From Gemmatimonadota bacterium (GTDB lineage Bacteria > Gemmatimonadota > Gemmatimonadetes > Longimicrobiales > Gaopeijiaceae), in contig JAJDXM010000031.1 of the NCBI GenBank assembly GCA_022823225.1, positions 1 through 32,617 on the forward strand: 32,617 nucleotides of DNA, read 5' to 3'. Position 1 is the stretch's first letter, and the number at the start of each line of letters is the position of its first letter. The notes under the pieces are model-generated. The model saw only the letters and a program-made list of their open reading frames with translations, was not told the origin of the DNA and ran no database searches. The position numbers were made by a program, and so were the translations under genes. Below, piece by piece: positions 53-32,617 of this stretch.

Positions 53-213
53 GTGGACGAAATTCGTCGGAATGGGTGGACGACTTCCGTCGGAACGAGT
101 GGACGAAATGAATCGGAATCAGTGGACGACTTCCGTCGGAACGAGTGGACGAAATGAATCGGAATCAGTGGACGACTTCCGTCGGAATGAGTGGACGAAA
201 TGCGTCGGAATCA
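53..213. repeat. Seven 23-bp tandem repeats, probable IS21-family transposon end
   Basis: Seven contiguous 23-bp units begin at 53, 76, 99, 122, 145, 168 and 191. Each starts GTGGACGA and carries TCGGAA near its end, and two variants alternate (GTGGACGAAATGAATCGG... and GTGGACGACTTCCGTCGG...). There are no unique spacers. Multiple terminal repeats of this kind, used as transposase binding sites, are known from IS21-family elements. The final unit ends in CA at 212-213, matching the terminal dinucleotide expected at an IS21 end. The istA/istB genes would lie left of the window and are not seen, so the family assignment rests on pattern only. Confidence 0.55.
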
Positions 214-1577: not shown

Positions 1578-1673
1578 CAGGCCTCACCGCTGGTGCCGCT
1601 GCCTACCGTCGCACCATGTTGCCGTCCCCGTTTACGGTGGCTTCTGGTCCTGCCGTGCCCCCTTAGGTTAGAG

Positions 1674-4600: not shown

Positions 4601-6095
4601 ACTCACGCCATTCATCGGGTACCCCACGGCGGTCTACCAAGAACACTTCCGTATCGCCGCTACGTCGGCTCCAGCGTCGAGTTTGGCTCTCAAGCGCCGA
4701 CCCGTAAGGAAGGGGTTCTCGCCAGAAAGCCCTAAGCCCGAACGAGACTGACATTGCGGTGGCAGGATCGTAGTCGACGAACACGTAGACGTGGAGGTCA
4801 GGCCATCGCGGCATGAGAGCATCGCCTCCGCTGGCCGGGATGATGGTGGTGGTAGCATGCTCCAACGCATCCGCTCTCGACGGGTATACTGTGCGCTTCG
4901 CTCGGAGGCCCTGATGATCCAAAAAAGCCGCGTGGTTCTCACCGACTTCGGCCAACGCAGGCACGTCGGAGACCTGATGCTCCTCAAGGACTGAGACGGC
5001 ACCCTTGGAGATGCCGAATACACGAGAGAGGTGGTTGGTCTGTTCGGCATTCGGCCAGCAGTGGAGCGGATCCTGGGTAGGACGACCTTTCCGGTCTCGA
5101 ATGTGAGGGTCACCGAGGAACTCGCATCCGGCGCACCGATAATTGACATGGTACGCGGTATCTGTCCACGGCGTCTCGAGGAGTCTCGGAAGAGTTTTGG
5201 AAATAAGATGTCGGAGGCGGGGAGCAAAAGCTTCTACGGGCGCGATTTCCAAGTCATTCTCAAAGACCTGGCTCAGCTCGGCAGCCGTTGGCACGTATCC
5301 CATACCGTGCCATTTTCGTTTCTGCGTGATGAGGTCGGAAACCTCTAACGACCCGGGCAGGACGGCTGGGGCTGCGACAACAAGGTAGTCGTTCGACAGG
5401 CCTTGATCCGCCAACCATCCGGCCAACGCCATCGAATAAAGGACGACCTCAGCGAAGTAGTGAGCACCAGGCTCACTCGTCATCTTGATGTCCGCAACAC
5501 GTAGACGGACACGAGAGTCGTTTGCAGGGTCAATTTGACGAGTACGCCCACTCGGGAGAATCTCCTCACAGTACGCGCCTGGCAAGTCCGGCCAGGCGAT
5601 TTGGTGCTCGCTAAGACGTGGGAAGACCTGGATCAAGTCCGGCCGCATCTCCCCAAGCTCAAGCGTCAGGCCGTTCCGATCCCGTAGGGCCAACATCCCA
5701 ACGGCGTCTCGAAAAGCGCGGGTGTGAGCGGAGTAGCTTCCTTCAACCAAGAACTGGTAGTCGGTTAGGGAGGCCAAGACGGAGTCCAGCGGCGTTGCCG
5801 GGATGCTTCCAGCCTTGTCTCTACCAGGGCTTCGGATCACGTTTGGAGCGCCAAAGGCACCCTCAAGTTCTCTAACTTTATCTGCCTGCCATTGGAGTCC
5901 GTGCCGACCAACCAAACCGAGCCCAGCCCGTCCACTTTGGCGAGGAGGCATTTGTAGGGCGGCCCTTGCGTCGTCAGTGTAGAGATAGAGCAAGAGTTGC
6001 CTTTCGCACCCTACTCGGAAGAACAACGAGACGGCACGCTTAGTTAGTCGAGGGGGTCTTAGTTCCATGGGTGGTGAAGTTCCTGATGAGGCCAT
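1674..6095 (-). CDS. TM0106-like RecB/Cas4-type nuclease fused to Upf1-like SF1 helicase
   Basis: This 1473-residue protein has three parts. The N-terminus is a PD-(D/E)XK nuclease: a conserved Cys30 (GCERQLLLYLY), the active-site Asp202-Ile-Lys204 followed by a helix HYFAEVVLYSMAL, and Cys321, Cys324 and Cys346, which with Cys30 would bind a 4Fe-4S cluster as in Cas4/AddB. An RNase H-like segment follows (VYVFVDYDPATAMSVSFGLRAFW). The last ~500 residues are an SF1 helicase with Walker A GPPGTGKS (Lys992), Walker B VLDEAS (Asp1135-Glu1136), and C-terminal motifs VDTVERFQGQQ and NVMASRARAK. This is the architecture of the TM0106-type nuclease-helicase family, expected to unwind and cut nucleic acid. 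An alternative start at 6068 (MELRPPRL) looks more natural for the family. It converges on the nitrilase gene and lies downstream of a DNA methyltransferase on the same strand, which suggests a defence role; that role is inference. Confidence 0.75.
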   Translation of the reverse strand: MASSGTSPPMELRPPRLTKRAVSLFFRVGCERQLLLYLYTDDARAALQMPPRQSGRAGLGLVGRHGLQWQADKVRELEGAFGAPNVIRSPGRDKAGSIPATPLDSVLASLTDYQFLVEGSYSAHTRAFRDAVGMLALRDRNGLTLELGEMRPDLIQVFPRLSEHQIAWPDLPGAYCEEILPSGRTRQIDPANDSRVRLRVADIKMTSEPGAHYFAEVVLYSMALAGWLADQGLSNDYLVVAAPAVLPGSLEVSDLITQKRKWHGMGYVPTAAELSQVFENDLEIAPVEAFAPRLRHLISKTLPRLLETPWTDTAYHVNYRCAGCEFLGDPHIRDRKGRPTQDPLHCWPNAEQTNHLSRVFGISKGAVSVLEEHQVSDVPALAEVGENHAAFLDHQGLRAKRTVYPSRADALEHATTTIIPASGGDALMPRWPDLHVYVFVDYDPATAMSVSFGLRAFWREPLPYGSALESQTRRWSRRSGDTEVFLVDRRGVPDEWREFRNFLRQIKRIFREVQAQDEVDEASGRRNRKTSRSTYQIYLWDDAQRRHLVRLISRYLPKIVADTELRVLAWLFPPPELLTNPADATRRSPFTLVYDVVQNTVALPNPHHYTLLDVASTLSDTTVTSPRVHPLYSDTLSNLLPPERIHEFWLKRRNWQETQALIVETAQKKLLALGLVVATLERRLKDELSRLSAPLIPTPPNRPAGLAPVSHLWLEFTHLNAALTSLEADRVRAMPPHEREARFRSARLLKRLEGAERRDALPCLQHVAPGPLAQPSELLVYKLAPGSHEFNARPGDFGYAIVPDALSNFLDQHPYPFIKDTSIQAWGDTVADANLTAVTIESIERQEGLIALRPDLRSWFAELTSEAGISFAGPCTLDRVERDYLSKKVRLTLRGIANPSIAQPDRRMLEALGLPSGTTAGTSRLTPAAEVLWDGSRLQEARSGRAVAPLRQSLEQALRGVGKVLMSDQWSALETALDRQLTLVWGPPGTGKSYTLRAVILGAVLDAASRRQPLRILVSANTYTAVDNILLRLHDDLRELYPGGAWPCTLHRIQSDSRPVDHDFDDRYRMLENLPLNRGKPSANVRALLRSLDASDHITVVGSPTQQLHNLAVAGQKKPPASATQRQWFDLIVLDEASQVDVANSTLVFSKRAAGGTCVLAGDDLQLPPIHPATPPLDLENVVGSIYNYCRHHLGVEPAPLNVSFRSNSTLIAFTREAGYEPELRAHSPDLRIRLRQTRSAAPADWPSGLTWTPDYAKIMDPDYPITSIVYEDRRSGQANQFEAESIVSLVWLFRRDLLYRLDNERDPLGMKIRDGRYSDPTTPLPSQFWRQSLGIVVPHRAQMGLIVARLQSMFPNEPADLIRGAVDTVERFQGQQRDIVLASFGIGDPDVIASEEEFLYNLRRFNVMASRARAKLIVFLTESFIEHLSNDQDVLTESLLVKLFAEQTCASVGAVTLYESGQGRTCDLRRAL

Positions 6096-6213
6096 TTGGA
6101 TCGCGCATCGGCTAGTGGCGTTGATTCACGGCAGCCGAAGGAGAATGAACGAGTTTGCAGTGGTTCCATCGTCCGCCAGATTCGGGCGCGGCGCCTGTCA
6201 ACACCTAGCACCG

Positions 6214-7317
6214 CTAAACCCTCGAATCCGAGTCACAGCTGACGGCACAGGACCCTGATGGTCTAGCTCCGTTGCGTAGGGCCGAGATTGGAACGGCGGC
6301 AATGTCGCCGCCGACCGCCCGTCGACCGAGCCTGATCGCCACCTCGAGCGTAGTACCCGAGCCGGCGAACGGGTCAAGCACAGTTCCGGGTACATATCCC
6401 GTCATGCAGGAGCATGAAGTGTACCCGGCTGATTCCCATTGCGGGAAAGTGAATTCTCGAAAATAGCCTCCTAGGAGCTTCTTTGCTTCGGAGGCGAGAC
6501 GTTGTACGGACGCCGAGTTCTTCTGTCCTTGGATCTCGCGACCCTTACCGGCGTCTGATATGCCGGTTGCCTGAATGGCTGCGATGTGGTCATTCGTCAG
6601 CCCTACCGTCTCGGCCAGCGCCTGGGCCCGCCTTGCCTGTGGTCGGTTGGGATTCAGAGACATCGTCTTTCTCATTAGTCGCTCTCGAGGGTAACCACAT
6701 GACCGGCAGACCTCGCTCGGACAGGCAAGAGTGATCGCGCGTTCAGCGAGCTCGCCGGGAAAGGGGGCTAAGTGGCTGTTGTTGCGACCGGAGGGGGGGA
6801 ACTCCCAGACGTCACTTGGCGAGACGCCTTCGCCTAGGTACTCCGAGTAGGCGTGAAGATCGTAGAAATACTTCGTCGATTTAGTGAGATGAAGTACGTA
6901 CTCATGTCGGGCCGGAAGGCGGTTTCGTGTGGGCGTCGGCATCCCTCTGATCTTGGACCATACGATGCGGTTCCGGACCTTCCATCCCTGGCCGCGGGCT
7001 ACCTCTTCGATGGCACCCGGAATCCCAGCTAGGCTGCGGTGACCGTTGTAGGTGTCACCGATATTCATGAACACCGAGCCGGACAGCTTCAGGACGCGTT
7101 TCATTTCGCCCAGTACTCTTGCCATTTCCTGGGCATATTCTTCCGGAGTGCTCTCTTGTCCGATCTGGCGCTCATGACCGTAGTCGCGGGTCTTGTAGTA
7201 CGGAGGCGACGTAACGACAAGGTCTATTGATTCAGACGCCAACGGAAGATTTCGAGCGTCACTCCTGTAGATCGCGACACGCTCGATGATGTGATTCGCT
7301 GGTTGGTTCTGGCTCAT
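6214..7317 (-). CDS. Site-specific DNA methyltransferase, beta class (N4-cytosine or N6-adenine)
   Basis: The 367-residue protein has the circularly permuted order of beta-class DNA methyltransferases: catalytic motif IV TSPPYY at residues 36-41 near the N-terminus and SAM-binding motif I FAGSGT at 317-322 near the C-terminus. Between them are pairs of cysteines (CPSEVCRSCG and TSCSCM) that could bind zinc. SPPY is compatible with N4-cytosine or N6-adenine methylation, and the target site cannot be read from sequence. A GAGAGG Shine-Dalgarno lies about 10 nt before the ATG. It sits 118 bp upstream of the nuclease-helicase and 118 bp downstream of the PLD-SNF2 helicase, all on the minus strand. 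It may protect host DNA from one of these neighbours. The C-terminal ~35 residues after motif I look little conserved. Confidence 0.85.
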   Translation of the reverse strand: MSQNQPANHIIERVAIYRSDARNLPLASESIDLVVTSPPYYKTRDYGHERQIGQESTPEEYAQEMARVLGEMKRVLKLSGSVFMNIGDTYNGHRSLAGIPGAIEEVARGQGWKVRNRIVWSKIRGMPTPTRNRLPARHEYVLHLTKSTKYFYDLHAYSEYLGEGVSPSDVWEFPPSGRNNSHLAPFPGELAERAITLACPSEVCRSCGYPRERLMRKTMSLNPNRPQARRAQALAETVGLTNDHIAAIQATGISDAGKGREIQGQKNSASVQRLASEAKKLLGGYFREFTFPQWESAGYTSCSCMTGYVPGTVLDPFAGSGTTLEVAIRLGRRAVGGDIAAVPISALRNGARPSGSCAVSCDSDSRV

Positions 7318-7435
7318 GGTCGCAGCCGCCTCTCAGGTTGCTCGCTCAATCGATCGCACGAGGCACCATTCCCATGGAGGTGCTCTGTCGTCGACCACTC
7401 ACCCGCGGCTGGGTGGTCCCAAGCTCGTTCTCTCA

Positions 7436-10400
7436 TCACTTGTTTCCTTCCTTGTGGATCTGTTCCGGCGTCGATGCGGAACGTGGAATTGAGTCATGGG
7501 GAGAGGCCGTGGACGTATCCGCCTCCATGACGCCCATCCAGACGACGAGATTCACCTCGTCCTCCTCGATGGGATCAAGCGGCTCGGGCGGCCTCCACGG
7601 CTGTAGCCCGAGTTCGTTCACGACATCGGCGATCCTGCGCGTCAGTTCTCCGGGGCCGACCTCGTCGGGCGCGAACACCTCCCGGAGGCACCGCTCTTGA
7701 CGGATCCCCCACGGCGCTTCGAGGGCGTCGGCCACTCGGTCCCGCTCCTCCACGGACAGCCCGGAGGCCGGGTGCATCCGCACATGGTCGGCGGCAGCCC
7801 GGAAAAGCGGGCGGATGCTGGGCTGGAGCGTGGCGGGATCGGTGGCGCGCATCCATTCCTCGTAGATGTCGCGGCGGGCGCGCTTCCAAGCATCGAAGGC
7901 TCCTTTCGCGAACCCCTCCGGCAGCGCGCGCTCGGTGTCCTCGGTGCATGAGAGGATTCCGAGGCAGGTCAGGGTGTCCCGCTCGATCTCCGCGTCCGGT
8001 TCCAAGGGCACGAACCGCATGAACACGCGGTCGAAGACGCGGGCGCAAAAGACGTGGCCCGTGCGGGCTCCGCCCACGAATCCCGAGCCGACCCCCCACG
8101 CCAAGTCTCGGATCCGGTCGTCCCAGCGCTCAATCCCCTTCCGTAGTTCCTGCCGGTACTCCTCGCCGCTGTGCGCGTGCACGCCTTCGCCTCCACGCTC
8201 GAAGAGGGAAGAGTCGCCCCTTCGGAGCGCCTCGATTTGCTTCCGGTCGTCCGCGAAGACGTGTTCCGTGTGGGCCGCGCCAGGAATGACGATCTGATCG
8301 AGTCCGATGGAGGCCGCCGCCTGTGCCAACTTCCTGCGGATCCGTTCTTCGAGGGCCAGAAGGGCTTCGAGTTGGCGGTCGGGAAACACGCAAGTGAGGA
8401 ACACCTTCTCGTGGGGACTGCCGATGCGGTCGATGCGCCCGTGCCGCTGTACGAGCCGCATCGGGTTCCAAGGCAGGTCGTAATTGATGATCCGTCCACA
8501 CTGCTGGAGGTTCATCCCTTCGGCCAGCACATCGGTCGTCACGAGGATGTCATACTTGTCGTCGGAACGTGACGGTGGGGCTTCCGTGGACTCGGGCGCG
8601 AAGCCGAACACCGCGTCGCTGCGGGTGATCCCATCGAACGAGTCGGTTCCCCTGACGACGGCGATGCGGCCCCGGTAGCGAGCGAGCCGCCGATCCGCCG
8701 CCACCACCTGCCGCAAGCGCTCGGCGATCCACTCAACGGTGTCGCCGAAGTATGAGAACACGAGCACCTTGCGGCGGTTGCGGATGTCGCGCTCCGAGAT
8801 GCCCTTCCGCTCGGCCTCCGCCGCAATGCGGGCGAGTTCCCCCGCGAGGAGCTTGAGCTTGGGGTCGTTCTCCGCCCTTATCGCGGACGCCCGAACGCGG
8901 AGGCGTTCGAGAAGCGCCCGATCCGACTGCACGTCTTCGACGAGCCTTGCGGTGTCGAGGTCGTCCTCGACCGGCTCGCCTTCGATGAGAAGCTCCTCCC
9001 ACGCCTCGTCGGAATCGGTCTCGCGTAACGCGGCCAGCGAATCGGAGGACGGGATCACCCCGGCTTCGACCGCGCGCACGAAATGGTCGTGTGCTGCGAC
9101 CATTCTGCTCACCGTCTGGACGAACGCCCGCGCCGATGACTCGAACCGCTTGAGCAGCCCCGAGCGGATGAGGCCCACGAGGGCGGTCTCGCGGGCGTCG
9201 GGGGTTCCCTCGCGGCGGTACCGGGTCGGCCAGTATCTGGCCATCGTGAGCTTGGGCTCGCCCTCCCCGGAGTCCAGCACCTCCGCGAACTCGTCGAAGA
9301 ACCCGGGAAGCACTTCATCCAGATCGTAGCTTCGGGAGCGGACCACCGGGTCCGGGAACCGGATCGTGACCTCGGTCCCGTCCTTGAGTCGGAAGTTGTC
9401 GTTCGGGTAGAAGCGCTGAACGAAGTGCCGCGTCCGCCGCACCGTGGTCGCATCGAGGATGTCGAACAGAGTGTCCGGGCTGAGCGAGAACGGATCTTCC
9501 TTGTCGGCCTGCCGGAACCGCTCCTTTAGCGAGGGGATGCCTCGGTCCGCGAACACCGCGTCGTGGCCGACGAAGTAGGTGAGGAGGTCGTACAGGTCCC
9601 AGAGCGAGTTGTTCACCGGCGTCGCGGTCAGAAGGACCACCTTCCGGGGCGGGTCCCCCCGCAGCAGTTGGCGGAGCGCGCGGGCGCGCTTCGTGTCCGC
9701 GTTCCGGAAGCCGTGCGCCTCGTCAATCACGACGAGCGAGTAGTCGCCGATGCTGGAGCCCAAGGCGCTCCCGTCTCCCTGGCCCAACTGCCGGTCGCCT
9801 GCCAACTGCTCGAACGACACCACTTCGATCCCGACTTGGTAGCGCGTCCTGAACTGCCTCCACATCCCATCCCTGAGCTGAGCCGGTGCGATGAGAAGCG
9901 CCCGTTGGCGGTTGCGCTCGATGACCTCGGTGAAGATCTCGGCCGCGATGAAGCTCTTTCCGAGCCCCACGCTGTCGGCGACCAGAACGCCGTTGTACTG
10001 GTCGAGGATCCGCTTGGCCCGGAACACCCCGTCAGTCTGGAAACGCGTGAGCCGGATGCGGCCCGAGTCCCCCGCCTCCTCTTCGAGCTCGCCGCCGTAG
10101 CGCTCCCACAGCGCGCGCAGGTAGATCAGGTAGGGAAGATGCTCGGCGAACTGTTCCCTGTAGATGGCGGCGAGGTCGTAGGGACGGGCGTCGTTCCAAA
10201 GACGGTCGAACCACTCCTCTACCCTCTCGACGACGCCGGGCTGGTACTGGCCGAGGTTCAGTTCGAGGTTCGACGTGAGCCCGGCGAGCGTGAAATTCGA
10301 CGATCCGGCGAGGACCCCCTGCTTGCCGGAGAACAGGAATGCCTTGCCATGCAGGAAGCGGTGCTCGTAGCGGCGCACCTCGATCTTGCCGGAGTCGAGG

Positions 10401-10780
10401 AAGTCCAGAAGCTCGCGCACCGAGGCTCGGCTCGGCCCGGAGAACGGGAGGCGGTCGCGGTCTCGTCTGAGTTTGCGCTCCGCGCCGTCGAGCTCCTCGT
10501 CCGCCAGCCTCTTCTCGTATCGCTCGCCGCGCGGATCGCCGAGGCGGCGCTCCGGCAGCCGGGCGGCGGGCAGCGGCTCGGCTCCGAGCAGGAGGCGCAC
10601 GCCTGCGGCGCGGCGGAGCACGTCAGCCAGCCGGCCGAATCCCCCCGGATTGAAGTATCCCGTCGCAATGGACGCCGAAGGCGGCTCGCGCAGCGTACCG
10701 AGCAGGTGTTCGAGGCGCTCCCGGAGCGCCCGCTCCAGAGTATTGCCATCGAGGTTGTCGACGAACTCCGGGTAACTCAT
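7436..10780 (-). CDS. PLD-like domain plus SNF2-family helicase
   Basis: The 1114-residue protein starts with a phospholipase D-like domain: His144-Gly-Lys146 followed by GSSNFT (Asn162). The Asp of a full HKD motif is replaced (Ser151), as can occur in helicase-associated PLDs. An SNF2/SF2 helicase follows: a Walker A-type DSVGLGKS (Lys275), DEAH at 353-356, LTATP at 384-388, and C-terminal motifs VFSYFGDTVEW and QRHGRIDRIG. Such PLD-helicase proteins are typically encoded with large Eco57I-type methylases in restriction-like loci and are thought to translocate along and possibly cleave DNA. The gene overlaps the upstream methylase-containing ORF by four bases (ATGA), indicating translational coupling. 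It appears full length. I could not match the locus to a named system such as DISARM, which keeps its PLD and SNF2 parts on separate proteins. Confidence 0.82.
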   Translation of the reverse strand: MSYPEFVDNLDGNTLERALRERLEHLLGTLREPPSASIATGYFNPGGFGRLADVLRRAAGVRLLLGAEPLPAARLPERRLGDPRGERYEKRLADEELDGAERKLRRDRDRLPFSGPSRASVRELLDFLDSGKIEVRRYEHRFLHGKAFLFSGKQGVLAGSSNFTLAGLTSNLELNLGQYQPGVVERVEEWFDRLWNDARPYDLAAIYREQFAEHLPYLIYLRALWERYGGELEEEAGDSGRIRLTRFQTDGVFRAKRILDQYNGVLVADSVGLGKSFIAAEIFTEVIERNRQRALLIAPAQLRDGMWRQFRTRYQVGIEVVSFEQLAGDRQLGQGDGSALGSSIGDYSLVVIDEAHGFRNADTKRARALRQLLRGDPPRKVVLLTATPVNNSLWDLYDLLTYFVGHDAVFADRGIPSLKERFRQADKEDPFSLSPDTLFDILDATTVRRTRHFVQRFYPNDNFRLKDGTEVTIRFPDPVVRSRSYDLDEVLPGFFDEFAEVLDSGEGEPKLTMARYWPTRYRREGTPDARETALVGLIRSGLLKRFESSARAFVQTVSRMVAAHDHFVRAVEAGVIPSSDSLAALRETDSDEAWEELLIEGEPVEDDLDTARLVEDVQSDRALLERLRVRASAIRAENDPKLKLLAGELARIAAEAERKGISERDIRNRRKVLVFSYFGDTVEWIAERLRQVVAADRRLARYRGRIAVVRGTDSFDGITRSDAVFGFAPESTEAPPSRSDDKYDILVTTDVLAEGMNLQQCGRIINYDLPWNPMRLVQRHGRIDRIGSPHEKVFLTCVFPDRQLEALLALEERIRRKLAQAAASIGLDQIVIPGAAHTEHVFADDRKQIEALRRGDSSLFERGGEGVHAHSGEEYRQELRKGIERWDDRIRDLAWGVGSGFVGGARTGHVFCARVFDRVFMRFVPLEPDAEIERDTLTCLGILSCTEDTERALPEGFAKGAFDAWKRARRDIYEEWMRATDPATLQPSIRPLFRAAADHVRMHPASGLSVEERDRVADALEAPWGIRQERCLREVFAPDEVGPGELTRRIADVVNELGLQPWRPPEPLDPIEEDEVNLVVWMGVMEADTSTASPHDSIPRSASTPEQIHKEGNK

Positions 10781-13284
10781 TGGTCACCCTGCCACGCCCG
10801 GAAGTGGTGCAGCGTGGCCCTCAGTCGCTCCTCGTGGTCCCAGCCTTCGTGGAACGTCTCGAAGATGTGGACGAGTTGCGACTCGGTGAGGGCGTAGAGG
10901 TGGGCGACCACGGCGTCGAGTTCCCAGATGTGGTCCTGCTTTTCGTCCGGGTCCATCGGACCGCACGCGACGCCGAGTCTTCCGGCCCATTCGGCGAAGC
11001 GGTCGTCTTGCGCCGCGAGTCGTCCGGCAAGAGCGATGACGCGTCCCCGCCGCGGGTTGTCCGGGTCGGGACGAGGTGCGGGGAAAGGGTTGATGACAAA
11101 GTAGGTCGGGTGTGTCTCCACGAATCGCCGTGCATACCAGTCGAGCGGAAGGGAACTCAGTAGGCCAAGCAGGAAAGCTTCATCCCTCTCGTCTCCGCGC
11201 GGGAGGAGGAAAAACGGCGAGTTGTGGACCAGCAAGACCCGTGGCGGCACCAACGCCGCCCGGATTGTGCGACTGTCAGTGGCACGAGTGACATCCCTGA
11301 AAGCGATGCGCGGTCGCAAGCACGGGAGAGTCTCGGGGTCGTCCCTCCACGCCTGATCGAACTCTGCGAACGCCGAGCGCCTGTTCGCACGCTTCCGCTT
11401 GCTCCGGAGACGGCCGAGTACTCGCTCGGGATCCGCCCAAGCGTAGTAGGTCCCCGTGTCCGGGGTCCAAAGGTCGAACGACGCCCCCTTATAGACCGGC
11501 CAGAATCCCTGGGGACACTCGTTCGACTCGATGTCCATCACATGCTTGTCGTTCGTGGCATCCAGTTCCCTATGTGGCCGTGCCCGCCAACCCACCCCGT
11601 CGTTGAGGTCCAGACGCGGGCTCCTGCGCAACTGCGCGAACACCTCCACCGACTCGTCCGACGGCAGAAGCGGGAGGGACGCCGTGTCGTTCCACGCCTC
11701 GACCTCGCGAGCGCAGAACGTCACCGGAGCACGCCGGACACCGGCCCGAAACCGCTTGAGGTTCGCATACGGCCCGTTCAGCCGAAGTTTGGACTCGCGG
11801 CTGTCCTTTGCGCGCGTAATGGCGGTTAGGCCGATGGTGTATTGCGGATGGACGTTCGGGAACACCCACTCGCGGTTGTTCACCAACATCGTCAGATCCA
11901 GCACCTCGGCGCTCGCCAGCAACTCCTTGCGGAATGCCGTGGATCCCTTCGCCGCCAGCGCCGAGCGGGGCAGCACGACGCCGATCCGCCCGCCGTCCGG
12001 CGACACAAGGTCCCAGAACCTCCAGACGAATGCCTTGTAGAGATCGGGGTCGCCCGTCCCCATCCCCGGAAACCCTCCAGCCGTGAGAAGGTGGCGCATT
12101 GAAGCTGCGCCGTCCTTTTCCGCTTCGAGCCGGTCCGCCAGATCCGGGCGCTGGGCCCGATACTGAACCTTCAGCGTCTCCTGCACCCTCTGCGGCCGCG
12201 ACCGCAAACCCGGGAAGTGGCGCGCCCAGAAAGCGTCCTCTTCGACGCGGGGTTTTTCCCACGGCGGATTGCCGAGGATCACGTCGAACCCGTTGCGGCG
12301 GCCAAGGAAGACGTGTGGGAAAGCGAGCGCGAAGTGCAGTACGTCCAGTCCCTTGAGTTCCTCGTGTCCCATATCCATCAACTGGGCTCGGAAGATGTCG
12401 CCCGGGTCGTCCAGAGCCGTCGCCACCCGTCCCTCAGCGATTGCTTCGCGGATGCTGCTGTTCGTCCGCGAGGCCGCCAGGAGCCCGCGCTGGCCGTCCG
12501 CCAGACTCCGCGCCGCCAGCGTCCGCTGGGTGATGAACTGGTTCAATCCCCAGTAGAAGAGGTTGGGGATCCAGAGGCCCCCGATGAAGACGGCGAGCCA
12601 CGGCATCTCGGTGTGGTTCCACGGCAGGACGGTGTGCAGCTTGCCGTCGGCGACCTCGAGGAATCGCTCCACTCCGCCGATCGCCTGGAAGCCGAGCACC
12701 GTCACCACCACCCCGCCCAGCAGCAGCGCCACGCCCTGGATCAGGTCCGACCAGACCACCGCCTTGAGCCCCCCGTAGATCGTGTAGCCGCCGGCGAGGA
12801 TCCCGATCAGCCAGATCCCGGCCACCGTGTCAATCCCGAAGATCGACTCGAGCGCGAGCGCCCCGGAATACAGCACGGTTGCCAGCGCGACGAACACGTA
12901 CGCCGCCATGATGAAGGCGGCCATGAGCGTGCGGGTGCGCAGGTCGTAGCGGAACTCGAGGTACTCCGGGATCGTGTAGATGCCCGCCTGCAGGAAGCGC
13001 GGCAGGAAGAACAGCCCGACCAGCACCAGCGTGACCGCGGCCATCCATTCGTAGCTGGCGATCGCGAGGCCGAGCTCGTATCCGCGGCCCGCCATGCCCA
13101 CGAAGTGCTCCGTCGAGATGTTGGACGCGATCAGCGAGAAGCCGATCAGCCACCAGGGCAGGTTCCGCCCCGCCAGGAAGTAGTCGGTGGCGTCGTGCTT
13201 GCCGCGCGACGCGTACAGCGAGACGCCCACGACGATCGCGAGGAAGCCGATGAAGGCGGCGATGTCGAGGGGCTGGAAGGACAT
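10777..13284 (-). CDS. Chimeric ORF: N-terminal half of SSS-family symporter fused to truncated Eco57I-type DNA methylase
   Basis: From the ATG at 13284 (longer readings use only TTG), residues 1-~270 are a sodium:solute symporter: hydrophobic helices with DYFLAGRNLPWWLIG, ASNISTEHFVGMAG, YTIYGGLKAVVWSDLIQG and FYWGLNQFITQRTLAARS. At about base 12430-12480 the protein switches, in frame, to a soluble Eco57I-like adenine methylase with catalytic motif NPPW (residues 339-342), the helicase-linked KAFVWRFWDLVSPDGGRIG block and a C-terminal target-recognition-like region. Symporters of this family have 11-14 helices; only about half are here. The methylase half begins only ~70 residues before NPPW, so SAM-binding motif I is missing. 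Both halves are therefore incomplete and the methylase is unlikely to be active. The methylase end couples to the PLD-SNF2 gene by an ATGA overlap, so the methylase was once the first gene of that pair. A deletion at the island edge or a misassembly would both explain this. Confidence 0.75.
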   Translation of the reverse strand: MSFQPLDIAAFIGFLAIVVGVSLYASRGKHDATDYFLAGRNLPWWLIGFSLIASNISTEHFVGMAGRGYELGLAIASYEWMAAVTLVLVGLFFLPRFLQAGIYTIPEYLEFRYDLRTRTLMAAFIMAAYVFVALATVLYSGALALESIFGIDTVAGIWLIGILAGGYTIYGGLKAVVWSDLIQGVALLLGGVVVTVLGFQAIGGVERFLEVADGKLHTVLPWNHTEMPWLAVFIGGLWIPNLFYWGLNQFITQRTLAARSLADGQRGLLAASRTNSSIREAIAEGRVATALDDPGDIFRAQLMDMGHEELKGLDVLHFALAFPHVFLGRRNGFDVILGNPPWEKPRVEEDAFWARHFPGLRSRPQRVQETLKVQYRAQRPDLADRLEAEKDGAASMRHLLTAGGFPGMGTGDPDLYKAFVWRFWDLVSPDGGRIGVVLPRSALAAKGSTAFRKELLASAEVLDLTMLVNNREWVFPNVHPQYTIGLTAITRAKDSRESKLRLNGPYANLKRFRAGVRRAPVTFCAREVEAWNDTASLPLLPSDESVEVFAQLRRSPRLDLNDGVGWRARPHRELDATNDKHVMDIESNECPQGFWPVYKGASFDLWTPDTGTYYAWADPERVLGRLRSKRKRANRRSAFAEFDQAWRDDPETLPCLRPRIAFRDVTRATDSRTIRAALVPPRVLLVHNSPFFLLPRGDERDEAFLLGLLSSLPLDWYARRFVETHPTYFVINPFPAPRPDPDNPRRGRVIALAGRLAAQDDRFAEWAGRLGVACGPMDPDEKQDHIWELDAVVAHLYALTESQLVHIFETFHEGWDHEERLRATLHHFRAWQGDQ

Positions 13285-13483
13285 GGCGGCGGGGTTTTGG
13301 TGGGTGGAGGCTGGCGGCAGAGGCAAGCGACGGCGGATGGCAGGATAGCGCCCAGGCGGCGTGGCTACCAGTGCCGGCGAGGGCGAACGGTCCTGGTCTC
13401 GGCAACCCTTCCGCCGTTCCTCGTGTCAGCGGTTCAGTCCACCGTCATTCAAACGACGGACGCTCACTCAAGCCGAACGACGG
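13285..13483. other. Divergent intergenic region, no recognised feature
   Basis: About 200 bp separate the symporter-methylase chimera (minus) from the propeller/sigma unit (plus). Promoters for both directions would be expected here. I see no convincing -35/-10 pair, palindrome or terminator. Confidence 0.3.
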
Positions 13484-20979: not shown

Positions 20980-22194
20980 ATGACCCGAACCGGAACCAGG
21001 ATCGCCGCCACCGCCGCCTCCCTCCCTCTCCTCCTGGCCTGCGACCCCGGCTCACAACCCGGTCCCGCCACCCTCGCCACAGACAGCGCGGGTGTCAGGA
21101 TCGTCTACAGCGACCCCGCGTCCTCCGGCGCCACCTGCACCATCGGCGAGGAGCCGACCGTCGTGATCGGCGACAACGACAGCGACGAGAACCAGTGGTT
21201 CTCCTCCGTCAGGGATGCGGCGCGGTTGTCCGACGGCTCGATCGCCGCCGTCGATCAGGCCTGGGCCGAGATCCGGATCTACGACTCGGCCGGCGAGCAC
21301 CTGCGCACCATGGGGAGGCACGGTGAAGGACCCGGCGAGTTCCAGGACCCCTACCAGATCTGGGTCGGTGCGGGCGACACAATCTGGGTCGGCGACTACT
21401 CCCCGTGGCGCTACAACCTGTTCGCGCCGGACGGAGCTTTCGTACGTGTCGTCGGTCTGGCACCCATGTTCATCAACCCGTCCAGGGCGGGAGGCGTGCT
21501 CGACAACGGGTACAGTGTGAACTCCACCGTCACGTGGTTTCGCAAGTCGGACTACAGCGTTCCGGACTCCATGGTCGTGGAGGGGCATGGTCCCGACGGA
21601 CAGCTCATCGACACGCTGGCCAGCATCCCCCATGGGAGCTGGGGGCAGGACGACCACGAAGCGCTGCGCACCTACTGGCTCCCCCGCCTCTTCGACGCGC
21701 GCGCCGTGGTCGACGCGGGCGGATCCACGGTTGCGCTGGGTCACGGGCTGAACGCCGAGGTTCGCGTCCTCGACGATGAATTCGACCTCCGCCTCATCGT
21801 GCGGTGGACAGAGCCTGACCGGGAGGTGACCGGCGGAGATGTGGAAGCCTGGCGCGCGGACTACACCCGGGAGTATGAGCGGCCCACCTCTTCACCGATG
21901 GCCGAGGCCTATGACGCCAACCTCAGCGACGACCGTCCGGTGGCCGACCTCTTCCCGGCCATCTCCGGCGTGATGGTCGGCCGTGACGATCGCATCTGGG
22001 TACGCCAATACGACAGACCTGGGGAAGATCGGGGATGGCTGGCCTTCGACCCCGACGGGGAGTTCCGGTGCCACATGGCCCCCCCGCCCGGGTCGATCCT
22101 GGAATTCGGCTCGGACTACGTGCTGCTGCGGCATGAGTCGGACCTTGGGGTGCAGACGGTTCGGCTGCACGGGTTGGAGTTGCCGCAGGTGTAG
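20980..22194 (+). CDS. Six-bladed beta-propeller lipoprotein
   Basis: I choose the ATG at 20980 over 20938 because it gives a compact lipoprotein signal (MTRTGTRIAATAASLPLLLAC, lipobox LLAC, Cys21). The mature part starts with the family signature DSAGVRIVYSD and has propeller blades with LSDGSIAAVDQAWAEIRIYDSAGEHLRTMG, GEGPGEFQDPYQIWVG, DTIWVGDYSPWRYNLFAPDG and DRIWVRQY. Role unknown; probably surface-exposed ligand binding. It is the last plus-strand gene of the sigma-factor region and converges on the next gene with a 62-bp gap in which I see no strong terminator. Its last 111 bp recur nearly exactly at 28687-28797. Confidence 0.78.
   Translation: MTRTGTRIAATAASLPLLLACDPGSQPGPATLATDSAGVRIVYSDPASSGATCTIGEEPTVVIGDNDSDENQWFSSVRDAARLSDGSIAAVDQAWAEIRIYDSAGEHLRTMGRHGEGPGEFQDPYQIWVGAGDTIWVGDYSPWRYNLFAPDGAFVRVVGLAPMFINPSRAGGVLDNGYSVNSTVTWFRKSDYSVPDSMVVEGHGPDGQLIDTLASIPHGSWGQDDHEALRTYWLPRLFDARAVVDAGGSTVALGHGLNAEVRVLDDEFDLRLIVRWTEPDREVTGGDVEAWRADYTREYERPTSSPMAEAYDANLSDDRPVADLFPAISGVMVGRDDRIWVRQYDRPGEDRGWLAFDPDGEFRCHMAPPPGSILEFGSDYVLLRHESDLGVQTVRLHGLELPQV
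22084..22194 (+). repeat. Dispersed 111-bp repeat, copy A (3' end of propeller gene)
   Basis: This stretch, encoding the last 36 residues (PPGSILEFGSDYVLLRHESD...) and stop of the propeller gene, matches 28687-28797 with three mismatches by eye. Confidence 0.85.
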
Positions 22195-23542: not shown

Positions 23543-24658
23543 TCAGTTCACCGACGGCAACATCCCCGGGCACGGCTCGCCGCTGACCCGGCGCAACGGG
23601 TGGAGCGAGACCCGGTTGGCGCTGTCCGTGTAGTAGGTGGTTCCGCCGTTCTCGTTTGGCTCGCTGTAGTTGTGAAACACCAGGACGCTGTCGCCGAGGA
23701 GGCGCACGGGCACACGGGCCTTGTCGGTGCTCGGATCCTTCCGGACGATCGCGTAGCAGCCGGTCTCCGGGTTGATGATTGTGCCCGCAAAATCGAAGTC
23801 ACTACCCAGTAGCACGAGATTGCCCCGGTCGTCCATGGAGGGCGTCAGGCCCCGGTTCCAGACAAAACAGGGGGCGCGGCCCACGAACTGGCCGGATGCC
23901 GTCGTGAGCTCCCTCTTCTCGCATCCCTCCCAGTCGGCGAAATCGGTGGGCACCGCCCCCACGGTCCCCGTCTCACCACTCCCATGGTACACGAACACGG
24001 AGTCCGGGCCATCCGTGTAGGACCTCACGACGAAGGCCCTGGACTCCGTGCAGACGATCCGGGCGCCGACGTGCGTTGTGACGAACGCATTGTTCTCCTC
24101 GATGGAGCGGATTTCGGGGGCGCGGTCCCTGTCCACTGCTGGGGGCATGCCGTCACTCGTCGCTTCCGGTCCCCTTCGCTCGACTCCGGACGGTATCGGA
24201 ATGGCCGGCTCGCCGCCAAAGTCGCAAACGTCAAAGGTTTGTTTCCAATCGGGGGTCCAGGAGCTGACGAAAACGCCCAGCGCATCGTACTCGACCACTC
24301 TTCCCAGGCCGGACACGTAGAAGCCCCCGTCCGGGGCGATCGCCGTGCTCCCCCTGCCGTTCGGGAACTCCCGGGGGCCGTCGCCCTCCGGGGTCTCGAT
24401 GGTTCGGATCCATTCGCCCGTCTCGAGGGAGAAGGCCATGATCCCTTCCGGTTCCTCGGCGTCGATGACGTAGAGGATGCCCCTGCTTCGGTCGATGGCC
24501 AGATCGGCGGTTCGCATCGACCGCCATTCGTCGTCGATGATGGTCCGGCCGGCTGTGTAGTCGATCTCCAGCAGCTGTTGGGCGTCCGCCGCGGGCGCGG
24601 CGAAGATCGCCGCAACGGCGAGCGGTATGACGGTCCAAGAGCGATTCAGCATCCTCAT
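23543..24658 (-). CDS. Secreted beta-propeller, paralogue of the BlaR1-like sensor domain
   Basis: I choose the ATG at 24658 because AGGAG lies five bases upstream; the longer start at 24682 has no ribosome site. The ~371-residue product has a cleavable signal peptide (TVIPLAVAAIFAAPAADAQQ). The remainder is a full-length paralogue of residues ~390-731 of the upstream BlaR1-like protein: both start EIDYTxGRTIIDDE, share DRSxGILYVIDAEE, GDGxREFP, CDxGGEPAIPxPSGV and end in GEPCPGMLP. Six or so conserved cysteines (for example CDFGGEP, GARIVC, WEGCEKRE, APCFVWNR, ETGCYAIV, EPCPG) may form disulphides. It could be a soluble competitor or co-receptor for the same ligand as the BlaR1-like sensor; that is inference. 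The last 120 bp before the stop region are identical in both genes. Confidence 0.75.
   Translation of the reverse strand: MRMLNRSWTVIPLAVAAIFAAPAADAQQLLEIDYTAGRTIIDDEWRSMRTADLAIDRSRGILYVIDAEEPEGIMAFSLETGEWIRTIETPEGDGPREFPNGRGSTAIAPDGGFYVSGLGRVVEYDALGVFVSSWTPDWKQTFDVCDFGGEPAIPIPSGVERRGPEATSDGMPPAVDRDRAPEIRSIEENNAFVTTHVGARIVCTESRAFVVRSYTDGPDSVFVYHGSGETGTVGAVPTDFADWEGCEKRELTTASGQFVGRAPCFVWNRGLTPSMDDRGNLVLLGSDFDFAGTIINPETGCYAIVRKDPSTDKARVPVRLLGDSVLVFHNYSEPNENGGTTYYTDSANRVSLHPLRRVSGEPCPGMLPSVN
23561..23680 (-). repeat. 120-bp identical repeat, copy 1
   Basis: Identical base for base to 24707-24826; it encodes the C-terminal ~40 residues of the secreted propeller. Confidence 0.9.
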
Positions 24659-24697
24659 TTCCTCTCCTGTATGCCTTTCCATGATGTGTTTGCCGTT

Positions 24698-26887
24698 CTA
24701 AGGCAGCATCCCCGGGCACGGCTCGCCGCTGACCCGGCGCAACGGGTGGAGCGAGACCCGGTTGGCGCTGTCCGTGTAGTAGGTGGTTCCGCCGTTCTCG
24801 TTTGGCTCGCTGTAGTTGTGAAACACGAGGACGCTGTCGCCGAGGACGCGCACGGGCAGTCGGGCCTTGTCGGTGTTCGGATCCTTGCGGACGATCGCGT
24901 AGCAGCCGGTCCCGGGGTTGATGATGGTGCCGGCGGTGTAGAAGTCCACCTCACTGAGGAGGACGAGATTGCCCCGGCCGTCCATGGACGGCGTCAGGGC
25001 CCGGTTCCAGACCCAACAGGGGGCGCGGCCCGCGGACTGGCCGGATGGCGTCCTGACCTCCCTTTTCTCGCACCCCTCCCACTCGGCGAAATCGGTGGGC
25101 ACCGCCACCCTCCCCGTCTCGCCACTCCGGTGGTACACGAAGACGGAGTCCGGACCGTCCAGATAGGACCGTACGACGAAGGCCGTAGACCCCGTGCAGG
25201 CGATACGGGCACCGAAGTGCGTCGTGTTGAACGTAGACGCCTCCTCAGGGGATCGAGCTGTGAAGCTGTCTTCCTCCGCGGCCTCCGCAGGGATGGGATC
25301 GTCTGTGCCGTCAGGCCCCCTTCGCATCACTCCGGACGGCATCGGAATGGCCGGCTCGCCGCCCAGGTCGCAGACTCCGGTGCCCTTCTGCCAACCTGGA
25401 CTCCACGCGCCTACGAAGGCGCCCAGCGCATCGTGTTCGAGAACCCTTCCCGGGCCTGATACGTAGATGCCTCCATCGGGTGCAATCGCCGTGCTCCACC
25501 TGCCGCCGGGGAACTCGCGCAGGCCATCGCCCCGCGGGGTCCGGATGGTTCGGATCCAATCGCCGGTCTCGAGGGAGAAGGCCATGACGCCTTCCCTTTC
25601 CTCGGCGTCGATGACGTAGAGGATCCCTTTGCTTCGGTCGACGGCAAGGTCGGTGGCCCACATCGAGCGTCGTTCGTCGTCGATTATGGTCCGGCCGGTC
25701 GTGTAGTCGATCTCGAGCACGGCGATCCGATTGCCGGTGCCGTCCTCCGACGCCGTGGCGGTCGGCAACTGCGGCTGGGCGAGGGCCCGCCGCGCGCCCG
25801 GAGTGAAGTACACAAGACCGAGGGACAACCCGAACACCAGCGCGGCCGCGCCGGCCACGCGCAGCCTGCCGACGGCGGCTGAAACGGAAGAGGTTGCCAT
25901 AACCGTCCTCAGCCTCTGCTCCAGCCGCCTTGAATCCCGGCAGCCGTCAGCCATGCTCGCCAGGGCCGGGGCCCGCGGGATCGGGACGGCCGACATGATC
26001 TCGACCACGCGGAGCAGTGACTTGGCGTACTGATCCCGCGTGAGCCTCGACGCGGCGACGGCGACGATATCGCAGCTCGACTCCTCGGCCGACCTCATCC
26101 TGCGCTTGGCCCACCAGACGACCGGATTCCACCAGTAGGCCGAGCACGCCAGCAATTCCACCACTCGCACCAGGTAGTCACGGCGCCGCACGTGGGCCAG
26201 CTCATGCGCCAGCACCGCGCGAAGCTCGGTCTCATCGAGCTCGGCGACGAAAATCGCTGGAATCAAAACGCGAACGCGCCCGCCCGCCCACCACACCATT
26301 GGGCGCAGCCGCGCATCCGTGGTGTAGACACGCGGCACTCGCGGCAGGCCCAGCGTGTCGCAGATCTCGGTCGCGAGCCGTTGCAACTGTGGGGCCGGCC
26401 GGGCGGCGCGGGTAAGCGTTCGATGAAAGCGGACCGTCCGCGCCACGGTCCACCCGAGGAACCCGGCGGAACCCAGCAGCCAAAGGATCGCAGCCAGGGG
26501 GTTTCCGTTCTGCGCGAGCCACGCGCCCAGGGAAAAGGCATCACCGTTCAATCCGGGGTCGGCTACCACCGGCGGGCCGACCTCGCGTCGCACCACAGCC
26601 TCTTGCGCCAAGTCCTCCGGCGGAGCGGGAAGCGGCTCGGCTGTGGACTGCGCCGTCAACTCGGACTGCGCCACGTGGGACTGCCCCACAACCTCCTCCT
26701 CCGCCCCCTCCGGCAGAATCCGAAGCGGGACGACTGCGGGCACCAGCATTGTGACGAGCACCATGAGCCACAGGGCATGGACGGTTGCCGGCCGCTTCAC
26801 GCGTTGCTGGACCGCCCAGGCCGCGCCGCCCAGCGCGAACGCGAGCGCCAGCTTCGTGGCGCCGATCTGCAGCAGGATGTCGGTCAT
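24698..26887 (-). CDS. BlaR1/MecR1-like M56 membrane protease with C-terminal beta-propeller sensor
   Basis: The N-terminal ~370 residues match the M56 antirepressor protease family. There are membrane helices near residues 10-25, 38-58, 125-150 and 345-365, the zinc site HELAH (His230, Glu231, His234, counted from an upstream ATG at 26893) in AVLAHELAHVRRRDYL, and the downstream Glu in SAEESSCD. In BlaR1 the part outside the membrane is a penicillin-binding domain. Here residues ~390-731 are instead a beta-propeller with EIDYTTGRTIIDDE, YVIDAEEREGVMAFSLETGDW and GGIYVSGPGRVLEHD. No SxxK serine site of a penicillin-binding domain is seen. The ATG at 26887 overlaps the blaI stop (ATGA), so the pair is coupled. 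Expected mode: ligand binding outside triggers the protease to relieve BlaI-type repression. The ligand is unknown. Confidence 0.82.
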   Translation of the reverse strand: MTDILLQIGATKLALAFALGGAAWAVQQRVKRPATVHALWLMVLVTMLVPAVVPLRILPEGAEEEVVGQSHVAQSELTAQSTAEPLPAPPEDLAQEAVVRREVGPPVVADPGLNGDAFSLGAWLAQNGNPLAAILWLLGSAGFLGWTVARTVRFHRTLTRAARPAPQLQRLATEICDTLGLPRVPRVYTTDARLRPMVWWAGGRVRVLIPAIFVAELDETELRAVLAHELAHVRRRDYLVRVVELLACSAYWWNPVVWWAKRRMRSAEESSCDIVAVAASRLTRDQYAKSLLRVVEIMSAVPIPRAPALASMADGCRDSRRLEQRLRTVMATSSVSAAVGRLRVAGAAALVFGLSLGLVYFTPGARRALAQPQLPTATASEDGTGNRIAVLEIDYTTGRTIIDDERRSMWATDLAVDRSKGILYVIDAEEREGVMAFSLETGDWIRTIRTPRGDGLREFPGGRWSTAIAPDGGIYVSGPGRVLEHDALGAFVGAWSPGWQKGTGVCDLGGEPAIPMPSGVMRRGPDGTDDPIPAEAAEEDSFTARSPEEASTFNTTHFGARIACTGSTAFVVRSYLDGPDSVFVYHRSGETGRVAVPTDFAEWEGCEKREVRTPSGQSAGRAPCWVWNRALTPSMDGRGNLVLLSEVDFYTAGTIINPGTGCYAIVRKDPNTDKARLPVRVLGDSVLVFHNYSEPNENGGTTYYTDSANRVSLHPLRRVSGEPCPGMLP
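24707..24826 (-). repeat. 120-bp identical repeat, copy 2
   Basis: Identical to 23561-23680; it encodes the C-terminal ~40 residues of the BlaR1-like protein. The flanking sequence of the two paralogues is clearly more diverged. Confidence 0.9.
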
Positions 26888-27255
26888 TCCCATTCCTCCA
26901 GAATCCTGCGCAGCCTCTCGATCTCCCTTTTCGGCAGCCTGTCCGCCTCGAGCAATTGCGTGATGATCGGGACGACCGATCCATCGGTGATCCGCTGGGC
27001 GAGAACCTCGAGCCGGTCGCTCGCGTATTCCTCCCGGCTCGGGACCGGAGAGAACCGGTAGACACCCACGTCACGGTCACGGACCACGAACCCCTTCTCC
27101 ATGAGGCGTTGCAGCAGACTCTGGACGGCACCGTGCTGCGAACGCGGCGAGTTCGGGTAGAGCTGCTCCTGGATCTGGCGTGCCGACAGGCGCGGCTTTC
27201 GCCAGAGCAGCTGCATGATGGCCAGTTCGGCGTTAGGCAGTTTCGGCATTCCCAT
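26884..27255 (-). CDS. BlaI/MecI/CopY-family transcriptional repressor
   Basis: At 123 residues it has the usual family length. The N-terminal winged helix is clear (LPNAELAIMQLLWRK, LSARQIQEQLYP, QHGAVQSLLQRLMEKGFV, VYRFSPVPSREEY), followed by the C-terminal dimerisation helices (LEVLAQRITDGSVVPIITQLLE, REIERLRRILEEWE). A GGAGGG ribosome site lies about 6 nt before the ATG at 27255. It is the first gene of a minus-strand unit with the BlaR1-like protease and propeller genes. It should bind the two palindromes in its own promoter as a dimer and be inactivated after signalling by the M56 protease. Confidence 0.9.
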   Translation of the reverse strand: MGMPKLPNAELAIMQLLWRKPRLSARQIQEQLYPNSPRSQHGAVQSLLQRLMEKGFVVRDRDVGVYRFSPVPSREEYASDRLEVLAQRITDGSVVPIITQLLEADRLPKREIERLRRILEEWE

Positions 27256-28630: not shown

Positions 28631-28686
28631 GACGGAAGCCGTTCGTCTCTCGCTTCTCTCTGGCTCCCGCGCCAACGCCACCTCCG

Positions 28687-28797
28687 CCGCCCGGGTCGAT
28701 CCTGGAATCCGGCTCGGACTACGTGCTGCTGCGGCATGAGTCGGACCTTGGGGTGCAGACGGTGCGGCTGCACGGGTCGGAGTTGCCGCAGGTGTAG
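28687..28797 (+). pseudogene. 3' fragment of a propeller gene (dispersed repeat, copy B)
   Basis: This 111-bp stretch matches the 3' end and stop codon of the propeller gene at 20980-22194 with three mismatches by eye (22084-22194). It encodes PPGSILESGSDYVLLRHESD... to ...ELPQV but has no start, signal or upstream blades. It sits in the 208-bp gap after the propeller gene ending at 28630. It is a relic of a lost or partially copied propeller gene. Confidence 0.8.
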
Positions 28798-31987: not shown

Positions 31988-32446
31988 CTACCCCACCTCC
32001 GCCGACCAGGTCACCTCGACCGCACCTTTCAGGGTGGCCGCAGTGGGGCACTTGGCCACATGCGTCTCCAGCGCCCGGTCCACCTTGTCGCGCGGCGCGC
32101 CCTCGGGCAGCCTGATCGTGTAGTGGACGTGGATCCGGGTCAGGGTGACGATCCGCTCCACGACCTCGTTGGTGCCTTCGGCCGTGACGCTGATCGCGTC
32201 GTTCGCCATCGGGATCCCGCGCACCTCCAGTGCGCCGTTGAGGGTCCCGAGGAGTCAGCCGGCGGCGGCCGCGACGATGTAGTCGACGGGCAGCGGGCGG
32301 TCCGGCTCGGCGTCGAGGCGGAAGTGGGACTTGATCGGGCCGTGGACGCCGAATTCGATTTCGGTGCCGTCCTCGAGGGTGGCGCGGCGGTGGATGCCGT
32401 CCACCTTGGCCACGCTGGCGCGGGCGGTGTAGAAGGGGTCGCTCAT
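31988..32446 (-). CDS. OsmC-family peroxidase-like protein, probable selenoprotein (TGA = Sec64)
   Basis: Starting at the ATG at 32446, 63 residues (MSDPFYTARASVAKVDG..., GPIKSHFRLDAEPDRPLPVDYIVAAAAG) lead to an in-frame TGA at 32255-32257. The same frame then stays open for 88 more residues (LLGTLNGALEVRGIPM..., HYTIRLPEGAPRDKVDRALETHVAKCPTAATLKGAVEVTW). Read through, it is a normal 152-residue OsmC-family protein. The TGA falls exactly where the family has its first catalytic Cys (small-residue run, Cys, then LxGTL); the second catalytic Cys is kept at Cys133 (AKCPTA). OsmC proteins reduce organic hydroperoxides using two redox cysteines, and selenocysteine versions are known from marine metagenomes. 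A hairpin with SECIS features lies 25 nt downstream. Nonsense mutation is the alternative, but the intact downstream frame and exact position argue against it. Confidence 0.8.
32219..32235 (-). promoter_or_regulatory. Candidate bacterial SECIS hairpin
   Basis: On the coding (minus) strand GCGCAC-TGGAG-GTGCGC forms a perfect 6-bp stem with a 5-nt loop whose second base is G. The loop begins 25 nt after the TGA, inside the range reported for bacterial SECIS elements (about 16-37 nt). An outer CGGGA/TCCCG pairing can extend the structure. Confidence 0.6.
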
Positions 32447-32544
32447 TGGGCGAAGACCTCGTTTGATTGGGGGATGACGGGCGCTCAAAGCTAATCTGCG
32501 CGCGGCGGCGGGGCAGCCCGGCGGCCCCACGCGGCGGCGGCGCC

Positions 32545-32617
<73 letters not shown>

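Follow-up and report, generated by a model that had tools for sequence, protein, structure and literature searches.

The window analysed here is the whole of contig JAJDXM010000031.1 (32,617 nt; Gemmatimonadota bacterium, assembly GCA_022823225.1), which belongs to a genome of 4.19 Mb in 97 contigs with an estimated completeness of about 96%. Close to its end lies an OsmC-family gene of 152 aa whose frame contains a single TGA, at codon 64 (Table 1). The frame reads MSDPFYTARA...VAAAAGU64LLGTLNGALEVRG...VAKC133PTAATL...AEVG up to the stop codon, with U64 standing for the TGA. An earlier note on this DNA had proposed that one TGA at codon 64 splits the frame of an OsmC-like protein and that a gene caller would report fragments; the TGA is indeed at this codon, on the minus strand, which the note had left unstated, and a standard caller does split the frame.

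Because the DNA is G+C-rich and an antisense ORF of 189 aa covers the same stretch as the OsmC gene, the open frame alone carries little weight. The plus-strand reading of 31988-32446 was rejected as an antisense frame without OsmC features. On the minus strand, the Pfam family PF02566 matches residues 49-147, across the TGA, with 58.2 bits against a gathering cut-off of 27.5. In an alignment made with a profile of 45 relatives, codon 64 aligns with the first active-site Cys ('aagC') and C133 with the second Cys ('CP') of the Thermus thermophilus OsmC protein 1UKK. This agrees with the placement of the TGA at the peroxidatic Cys and of an intact resolving Cys133 in the same frame that had been proposed earlier, and the Cys that was expected in the TGA column of OsmC homologues is present in this solved structure.

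Table 1. Features of the osmC locus, in window positions
Feature	Position	Strand	Evidence
OsmC-family gene, predicted to contain Sec (ATG at 32446, TAG ending at 31988)	31988..32446	-	translation, PF02566, homologues, AlphaFold, Foldseek
TGA, codon 64, predicted to be read as Sec; peroxidatic position	32257-32255	-	alignment with Cys of 1UKK
TGC codon of Cys133, putative resolving Cys in CP motif	32050-32048	-	invariant in A1 and A2; aligned with second Cys of 1UKK
Possible ribosome-binding site GAGG, 10 nt 5' of the ATG	32457..32460	-	visible in sequence (candidate)
Putative bacterial SECIS hairpin, 6-bp stem, loop UGGAG	32219..32235 (loop 32225-32229)	-	alignment, covariation, bSECIS criteria

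Several other features of the contig were recorded. A defence-like cluster at 72-10780 comprises a large AAA helicase, a type II methyltransferase and a PLD+SNF2 helicase, and opens with the C-terminal nitrilase part of a DRT1a-type protein that is cut by the contig start. In the ORF 10780-13326 (minus strand), an initial sodium:solute symporter portion (positions 1-232 of the 406 in Pfam SSF) runs into the C-terminal region of a type IIG restriction enzyme-methyltransferase, and the join reflects either a fusion by deletion or a chimaeric assembly. At 23543-26893 (minus strand) lies a tandem duplication with a spacing of 1146-1149 nt and copies that are 81-93% identical; here a beta-propeller-like gene adjoins a BlaR1-type M56 peptidase with a second copy at its C-terminus, and a BlaI-type repressor lies upstream. 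A 114-nt repeat, found at 22081-22194 and 28684-28797 with 96% identity, encodes in both places the C-terminal tail SDYVLLRHESDLGVQTVRLHG of a propeller-type protein, and its copy at 28684-28797 sits after the end of an unrelated gene, like a displaced 3' fragment. The contig closes with a near-pure poly-C run at 32549-32609, which lies some 100 bp before osmC begins and is probably an assembly artefact.

Conservation of the in-frame TGA

Among the matches listed from 395 genomes of the phylum, every relative with an E-value of about 1e-21 or better has exactly one internal TGA. In the genes that we read directly, it stands at the same column in 78/78 members of group A (close relatives) and 33/33 members of group B (paralogous genes). 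The same was true of 80/80 further GTDB relatives (79 by script and one, L213, by eye), which are mostly labelled Gemmatimonadota/Longimicrobiales and include Eisenbacteria as well as MAGs labelled Acidobacteria. Because one of the two patterns used for the GTDB search carried Cys at the codon-64 position, this search was not biased against Cys forms. When Cys orthologues were sought by profile in 18 weakly matching genomes, the search returned TGA genes (four more) or nothing, the sole other match being the N-terminal piece of a gene interrupted by a contig break.

No Cys was found at the TGA column among the 111 phylum homologues, the 80 GTDB relatives and the 4 additional genes. Against the A+B profile, OsmC proteins of the phylum that lack the TGA scored no higher than 23 bits, and the complete extra members scored above 170. 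Gly at +3 and Thr at +4 from the TGA are shared by all 78 group A and all 33 group B genes (motif UxxGT), in none of which the UxxT motif of the described OsmC selenoproteins occurs. Within what could be searched, the UxxGT branch thus appears to be Sec-only. The genome under study has a second Sec-OsmC paralogue, a member of group B (L053, G000:C52:53723-54016), which shares the TGA column, UxxGT, the second Cys and mostly the same hairpin, but is 33% identical and differs in the motif at the second Cys, which is CPVYR here and CPTA in the first protein.

Decoding signal and selenocysteine machinery

The alignment revealed a hairpin 3' of the TGA in which GCGCAC pairs with GUGCGC around the loop. 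The published criteria for bacterial SECIS (bSECIS) elements are an apical loop of 3-9 nt, a stem of 4-16 bp, a G in the first two loop positions, a distance of 16-37 nt from the UGA and a minimum free energy of at most -7.5 kcal/mol (PMC13188914). With a loop of 5 nt, 6 bp, G as the second loop nucleotide, a UGA-to-loop distance of 25 nt and -12.7 kcal/mol, the hairpin lies within all of them; its energy was reached by 43/2000 synonymous shuffles. An Rfam search of the region returned no matching family.

All six stem pairs are kept in 96/96 distinct group A sequences. Compensatory changes replace A26-U34 by G26-C34, together with a Val-to-Ala codon change on the opposite side, and C25-G35 by U25-A35, the latter in both groups A and B. 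Among 27 distinct stems, 100% of cells pair and the covariation score was reached by 0/500 shuffles, and sliding the partner strand of the hairpin destroys the pairing. In group B, 28/32 sequences keep most hairpin pairs and 4/32 do not in this register. These four distinct sequences (L102, L103, L105 and L107) have a different hairpin sequence and lack the pairs while their TGA is conserved, and they may use a shifted SECIS.

Selection was assessed on both sides of the TGA. Median pN/pS values against this gene are 0.21 upstream and 0.27 downstream, and the latter indicates that the half downstream of the TGA is under constraint at the protein level. Synonymous change is reduced in the first 14 codons after the TGA (median pS 0.16 versus 0.39 downstream overall). 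Codons +7 to +12, where each conserved amino acid is encoded by one or two different triplets, are frozen (GGC 77/78, CTG 78/78, CGC 77/78); conserved Gly, Leu and Arg codons elsewhere mostly have a codon entropy of 1.2-1.9 bits.

The earlier note had implied that the host decodes UGA as Sec, had suggested a search for selA, selB, selC and selD, and had regarded the absence of selB or selC as fatal to its reading. All four were found in the same genome, above curated cut-offs: tRNA-Sec with anticodon TCA (79.6 bits), SelB (306.9 bits), SelA (470.4 bits) and SelD (381.1 bits). Because this set is present, the genome should decode UGA as Sec. The selD gene of this genome (L018, G000:C52:13402-14319) has an in-frame TGA of its own (GAGUGCKLG) with a strong hairpin directly 3' of the UGA, and is itself a selenoprotein gene. 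Across the phylum, where Sec-OsmC was counted as present at E<=1.3e-15 (114 of 395 genomes), tRNA-Sec was detected in 106/114 Sec-OsmC genomes versus 171/281 others (Fisher p about 8e-12, from a hand tally that ignores shared ancestry). The eight Sec-OsmC genomes without a detected tRNA-Sec are all drafts, and the absence is most simply due to this draft state.

An erroneous TGA, read in place of TGC, might be suspected in a gene that lies some 100 bp short of a contig end and its low-complexity tail, and the earlier note would have given up its reading for such an isolated error. A pseudogene, with translation stopping at the TGA and a defunct 3' half, would likewise fit the frame being split by a standard gene caller. 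Many genomes share the TGA together with both of its flanks, at 51-95% identity, which excludes sequencing error and a decayed pseudogene. The error, to which we give a negligible chance, is refuted by the same TGA in all homologues examined and in independently assembled genomes, single-contig ones included (G017, G058, G070, G075, G069, G125). The pseudogene is refuted by a TGA at the same codon across genera and by purifying selection on both sides, and is extremely improbable. That UGA encodes another amino acid, in the style of code 4, or is passed by programmed read-through without selenium, has the open frame in its favour and nothing beyond it. Such recoding is very hard to reconcile with one TGA per gene that is always at the redox position, with homologues of which most, among those with a recorded stop codon, end in TGA, and with a full Sec machinery and a SECIS hairpin right 3' of the UGA. 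TGA conservation, the covarying hairpin and the co-occurrence with tRNA-Sec instead support the OsmC-like selenoprotein that had been proposed, and we consider it almost certain, judging from the sequence, that the gene is a functional selenoprotein gene.

Fold, active site and gene neighbourhood

An AlphaFold model built from 45 sequences has a pLDDT of 96.4, and the top Foldseek matches are OsmC/Ohr structures with a probability of 1.00, among them E. coli OsmC (1NYE chain E, TMq 0.75), Thermoplasma Ta0195 (2ONF, TMq 0.79) and Ohr 6EB4, which has the top E-value. The model places U64 within its central helix (residues 53-75), and C133 where helix 119-132 breaks off before helix 134-139. Both are invariant and correspond to the two redox-active positions (Cp and Cr) of Ohr/OsmC peroxidases. 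R20 near the N-terminus, which is invariant in A1, may correspond to the catalytic Arg of Ohr. At the position of the catalytic Glu of Ohr (-10 from Cp), Val is found in 78/78 group A sequences and Leu or Ile in group B, followed by an invariant Asp at -9 from codon 64 (V54-D55). Because this Glu is replaced by Val, Leu or Ile, the active site, as read from the alignment, differs from the standard Ohr one.

Ohr uses its peroxidatic Cys to reduce hydroperoxides and its resolving Cys to form a disulfide, and is regenerated by lipoylated proteins, with Arg19 and Glu51 assisting (PMC5962072); the Glu positions the catalytic Arg. In the gene described here, UGA64 would be decoded by SelB and Sec-tRNA(UCA) under the direction of the SECIS hairpin, which lies inside the coding sequence at 22-38 nt 3' of the UGA. 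What results would be an OsmC/Ohr-fold protein with Sec at the peroxidatic position and Cys133 as the resolving residue. It would most likely reduce organic hydroperoxides: the selenolate would attack the peroxide to yield a selenenic acid, Cys133 would then form an Se-S bond, and a dithiol donor, which in Ohr is a lipoylated protein, would reset this bond. Computation shows the gene, the decoding machinery, the SECIS, the conserved TGA and the fold; UGA decoding in the cell, the peroxidase activity, its substrate and its reductant are what we infer in this scheme. The protein would then be a selenol peroxidase whose activation step is altered, and loss of the Glu could perhaps be tolerated because a selenol has already given up its proton at neutral pH.

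The neighbourhood of the gene offers a weak hint at the donor. No conserved operon was found around osmC in the genus of this gene. Of 65 loci with enough upstream DNA, 21 have a divergent 2-oxoglutarate dehydrogenase E1 gene upstream, in most of them with a YfiH/laccase-domain gene between the E1 gene and osmC; all 21 lie outside the genus and outside the close relatives of more than 76% identity, and the present contig ends before the region where the E1 gene would lie. Since Ohr is reduced by lipoylated proteins, a lipoyl-linked donor is a tempting suggestion, which stays a hint because no E2 or E3 gene was recognised by eye near osmC in the E1 loci.

An OsmC-fold selenoprotein could also have a job other than peroxide reduction, such as thiol-disulfide exchange, reduction of other electrophiles or selenium/sulfur handling. 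The absent catalytic Glu, with invariant V54-D55 in its place, and scores far below the cut-offs of the NCBIfam peroxidase subfamilies would suit such a role, and other OsmC relatives are without known function; to our knowledge, the superfamily also contains proteins without known peroxidase activity. Against it stand Sec and Cys at both active-site positions, Arg20 invariant in A1 and a fold that is nearest to OsmC/Ohr peroxidases, and a selenolate at neutral pH may lessen the need for activation by Glu and Arg. We regard a non-peroxide role as possible but rather unlikely, and hydroperoxide reduction as probably the main job of the protein.

Discussion

Because standard annotation splits such genes, a widespread antioxidant-type selenoprotein is overlooked in Gemmatimonadota; Sec is predicted at the same position in considerably more than 100 bacterial relatives of the gene. 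On balance, we favour the reading that the UxxGT genes form an undescribed two-group OsmC branch that is exclusively Sec, has retained Sec as it spread through Gemmatimonadota and reached Eisenbacteria with no Cys version, and has lost the usual Glu; its members may then be peroxidases that depend obligately on selenium and are activated by another mechanism. According to a recent review, nearly all selenoproteins have Cys homologues (PMC13188914), and a branch for which the searches gave no Cys form invites the question of why Sec is retained. Because the covariation support for its SECIS, which lies inside the coding sequence, is unusually strong, the hairpin would also be well suited to tests of how SelB recognises its target in the phylum.

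Sec-OsmC as such is already known. OsmC-like selenoproteins were predicted in 2005 from the Sargasso Sea, with three sequences, the motif UxxT and an assignment to COG1765/PF02566 (Zhang et al., PMC1088965), five sequences were found in GOS (PMC2398784), and OsmC-like is one of the 119 selenoprotein families of a 2026 review, which treats different Sec motifs as separate subfamilies (PMC13188914). The protein described here is the same fold, with the same two active-site positions, as E. coli OsmC (1NYE/1QWI), T. thermophilus OsmC (1UKK) and Ohr (1N2F, 6EB4); these structures, at 20-26% identity, have Cys where Sec is predicted here, and Ohr has its catalytic Glu at -10, where Val is found here. 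With the UxxT protein it shares the OsmC domain, a Sec redox residue and a bacterial SECIS 3' of the UGA, whereas its motif is UxxGT, with Gly rather than Thr at +3, and the 2005 table counts Cys homologues of the UxxT kind while no Cys member was found in the UxxGT branch.

The NCBIfam model NF041052 (OsmC_like_Se) is the best NCBIfam match of the protein (E 3.2e-8), at 33.6 bits against a cut-off of 95, and the group B member of the same genome has no match to it. In this phylum, NF041052 finds OsmC genes without a TGA rather than the UxxGT genes, as there was no TGA gene among the phylum matches at E<=1e-15. The protein is both a selenoprotein and an OsmC protein, and is set apart from the described OsmC selenoprotein subfamily by motif and models, although it may prove closer to the UxxT protein MCS5647933.1 than these models suggest. 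The UxxGT motif, an NF041052 score far below the cut-off, the missing Ohr Glu and the apparent Sec-only pattern characterise this branch among the OsmC selenoproteins.
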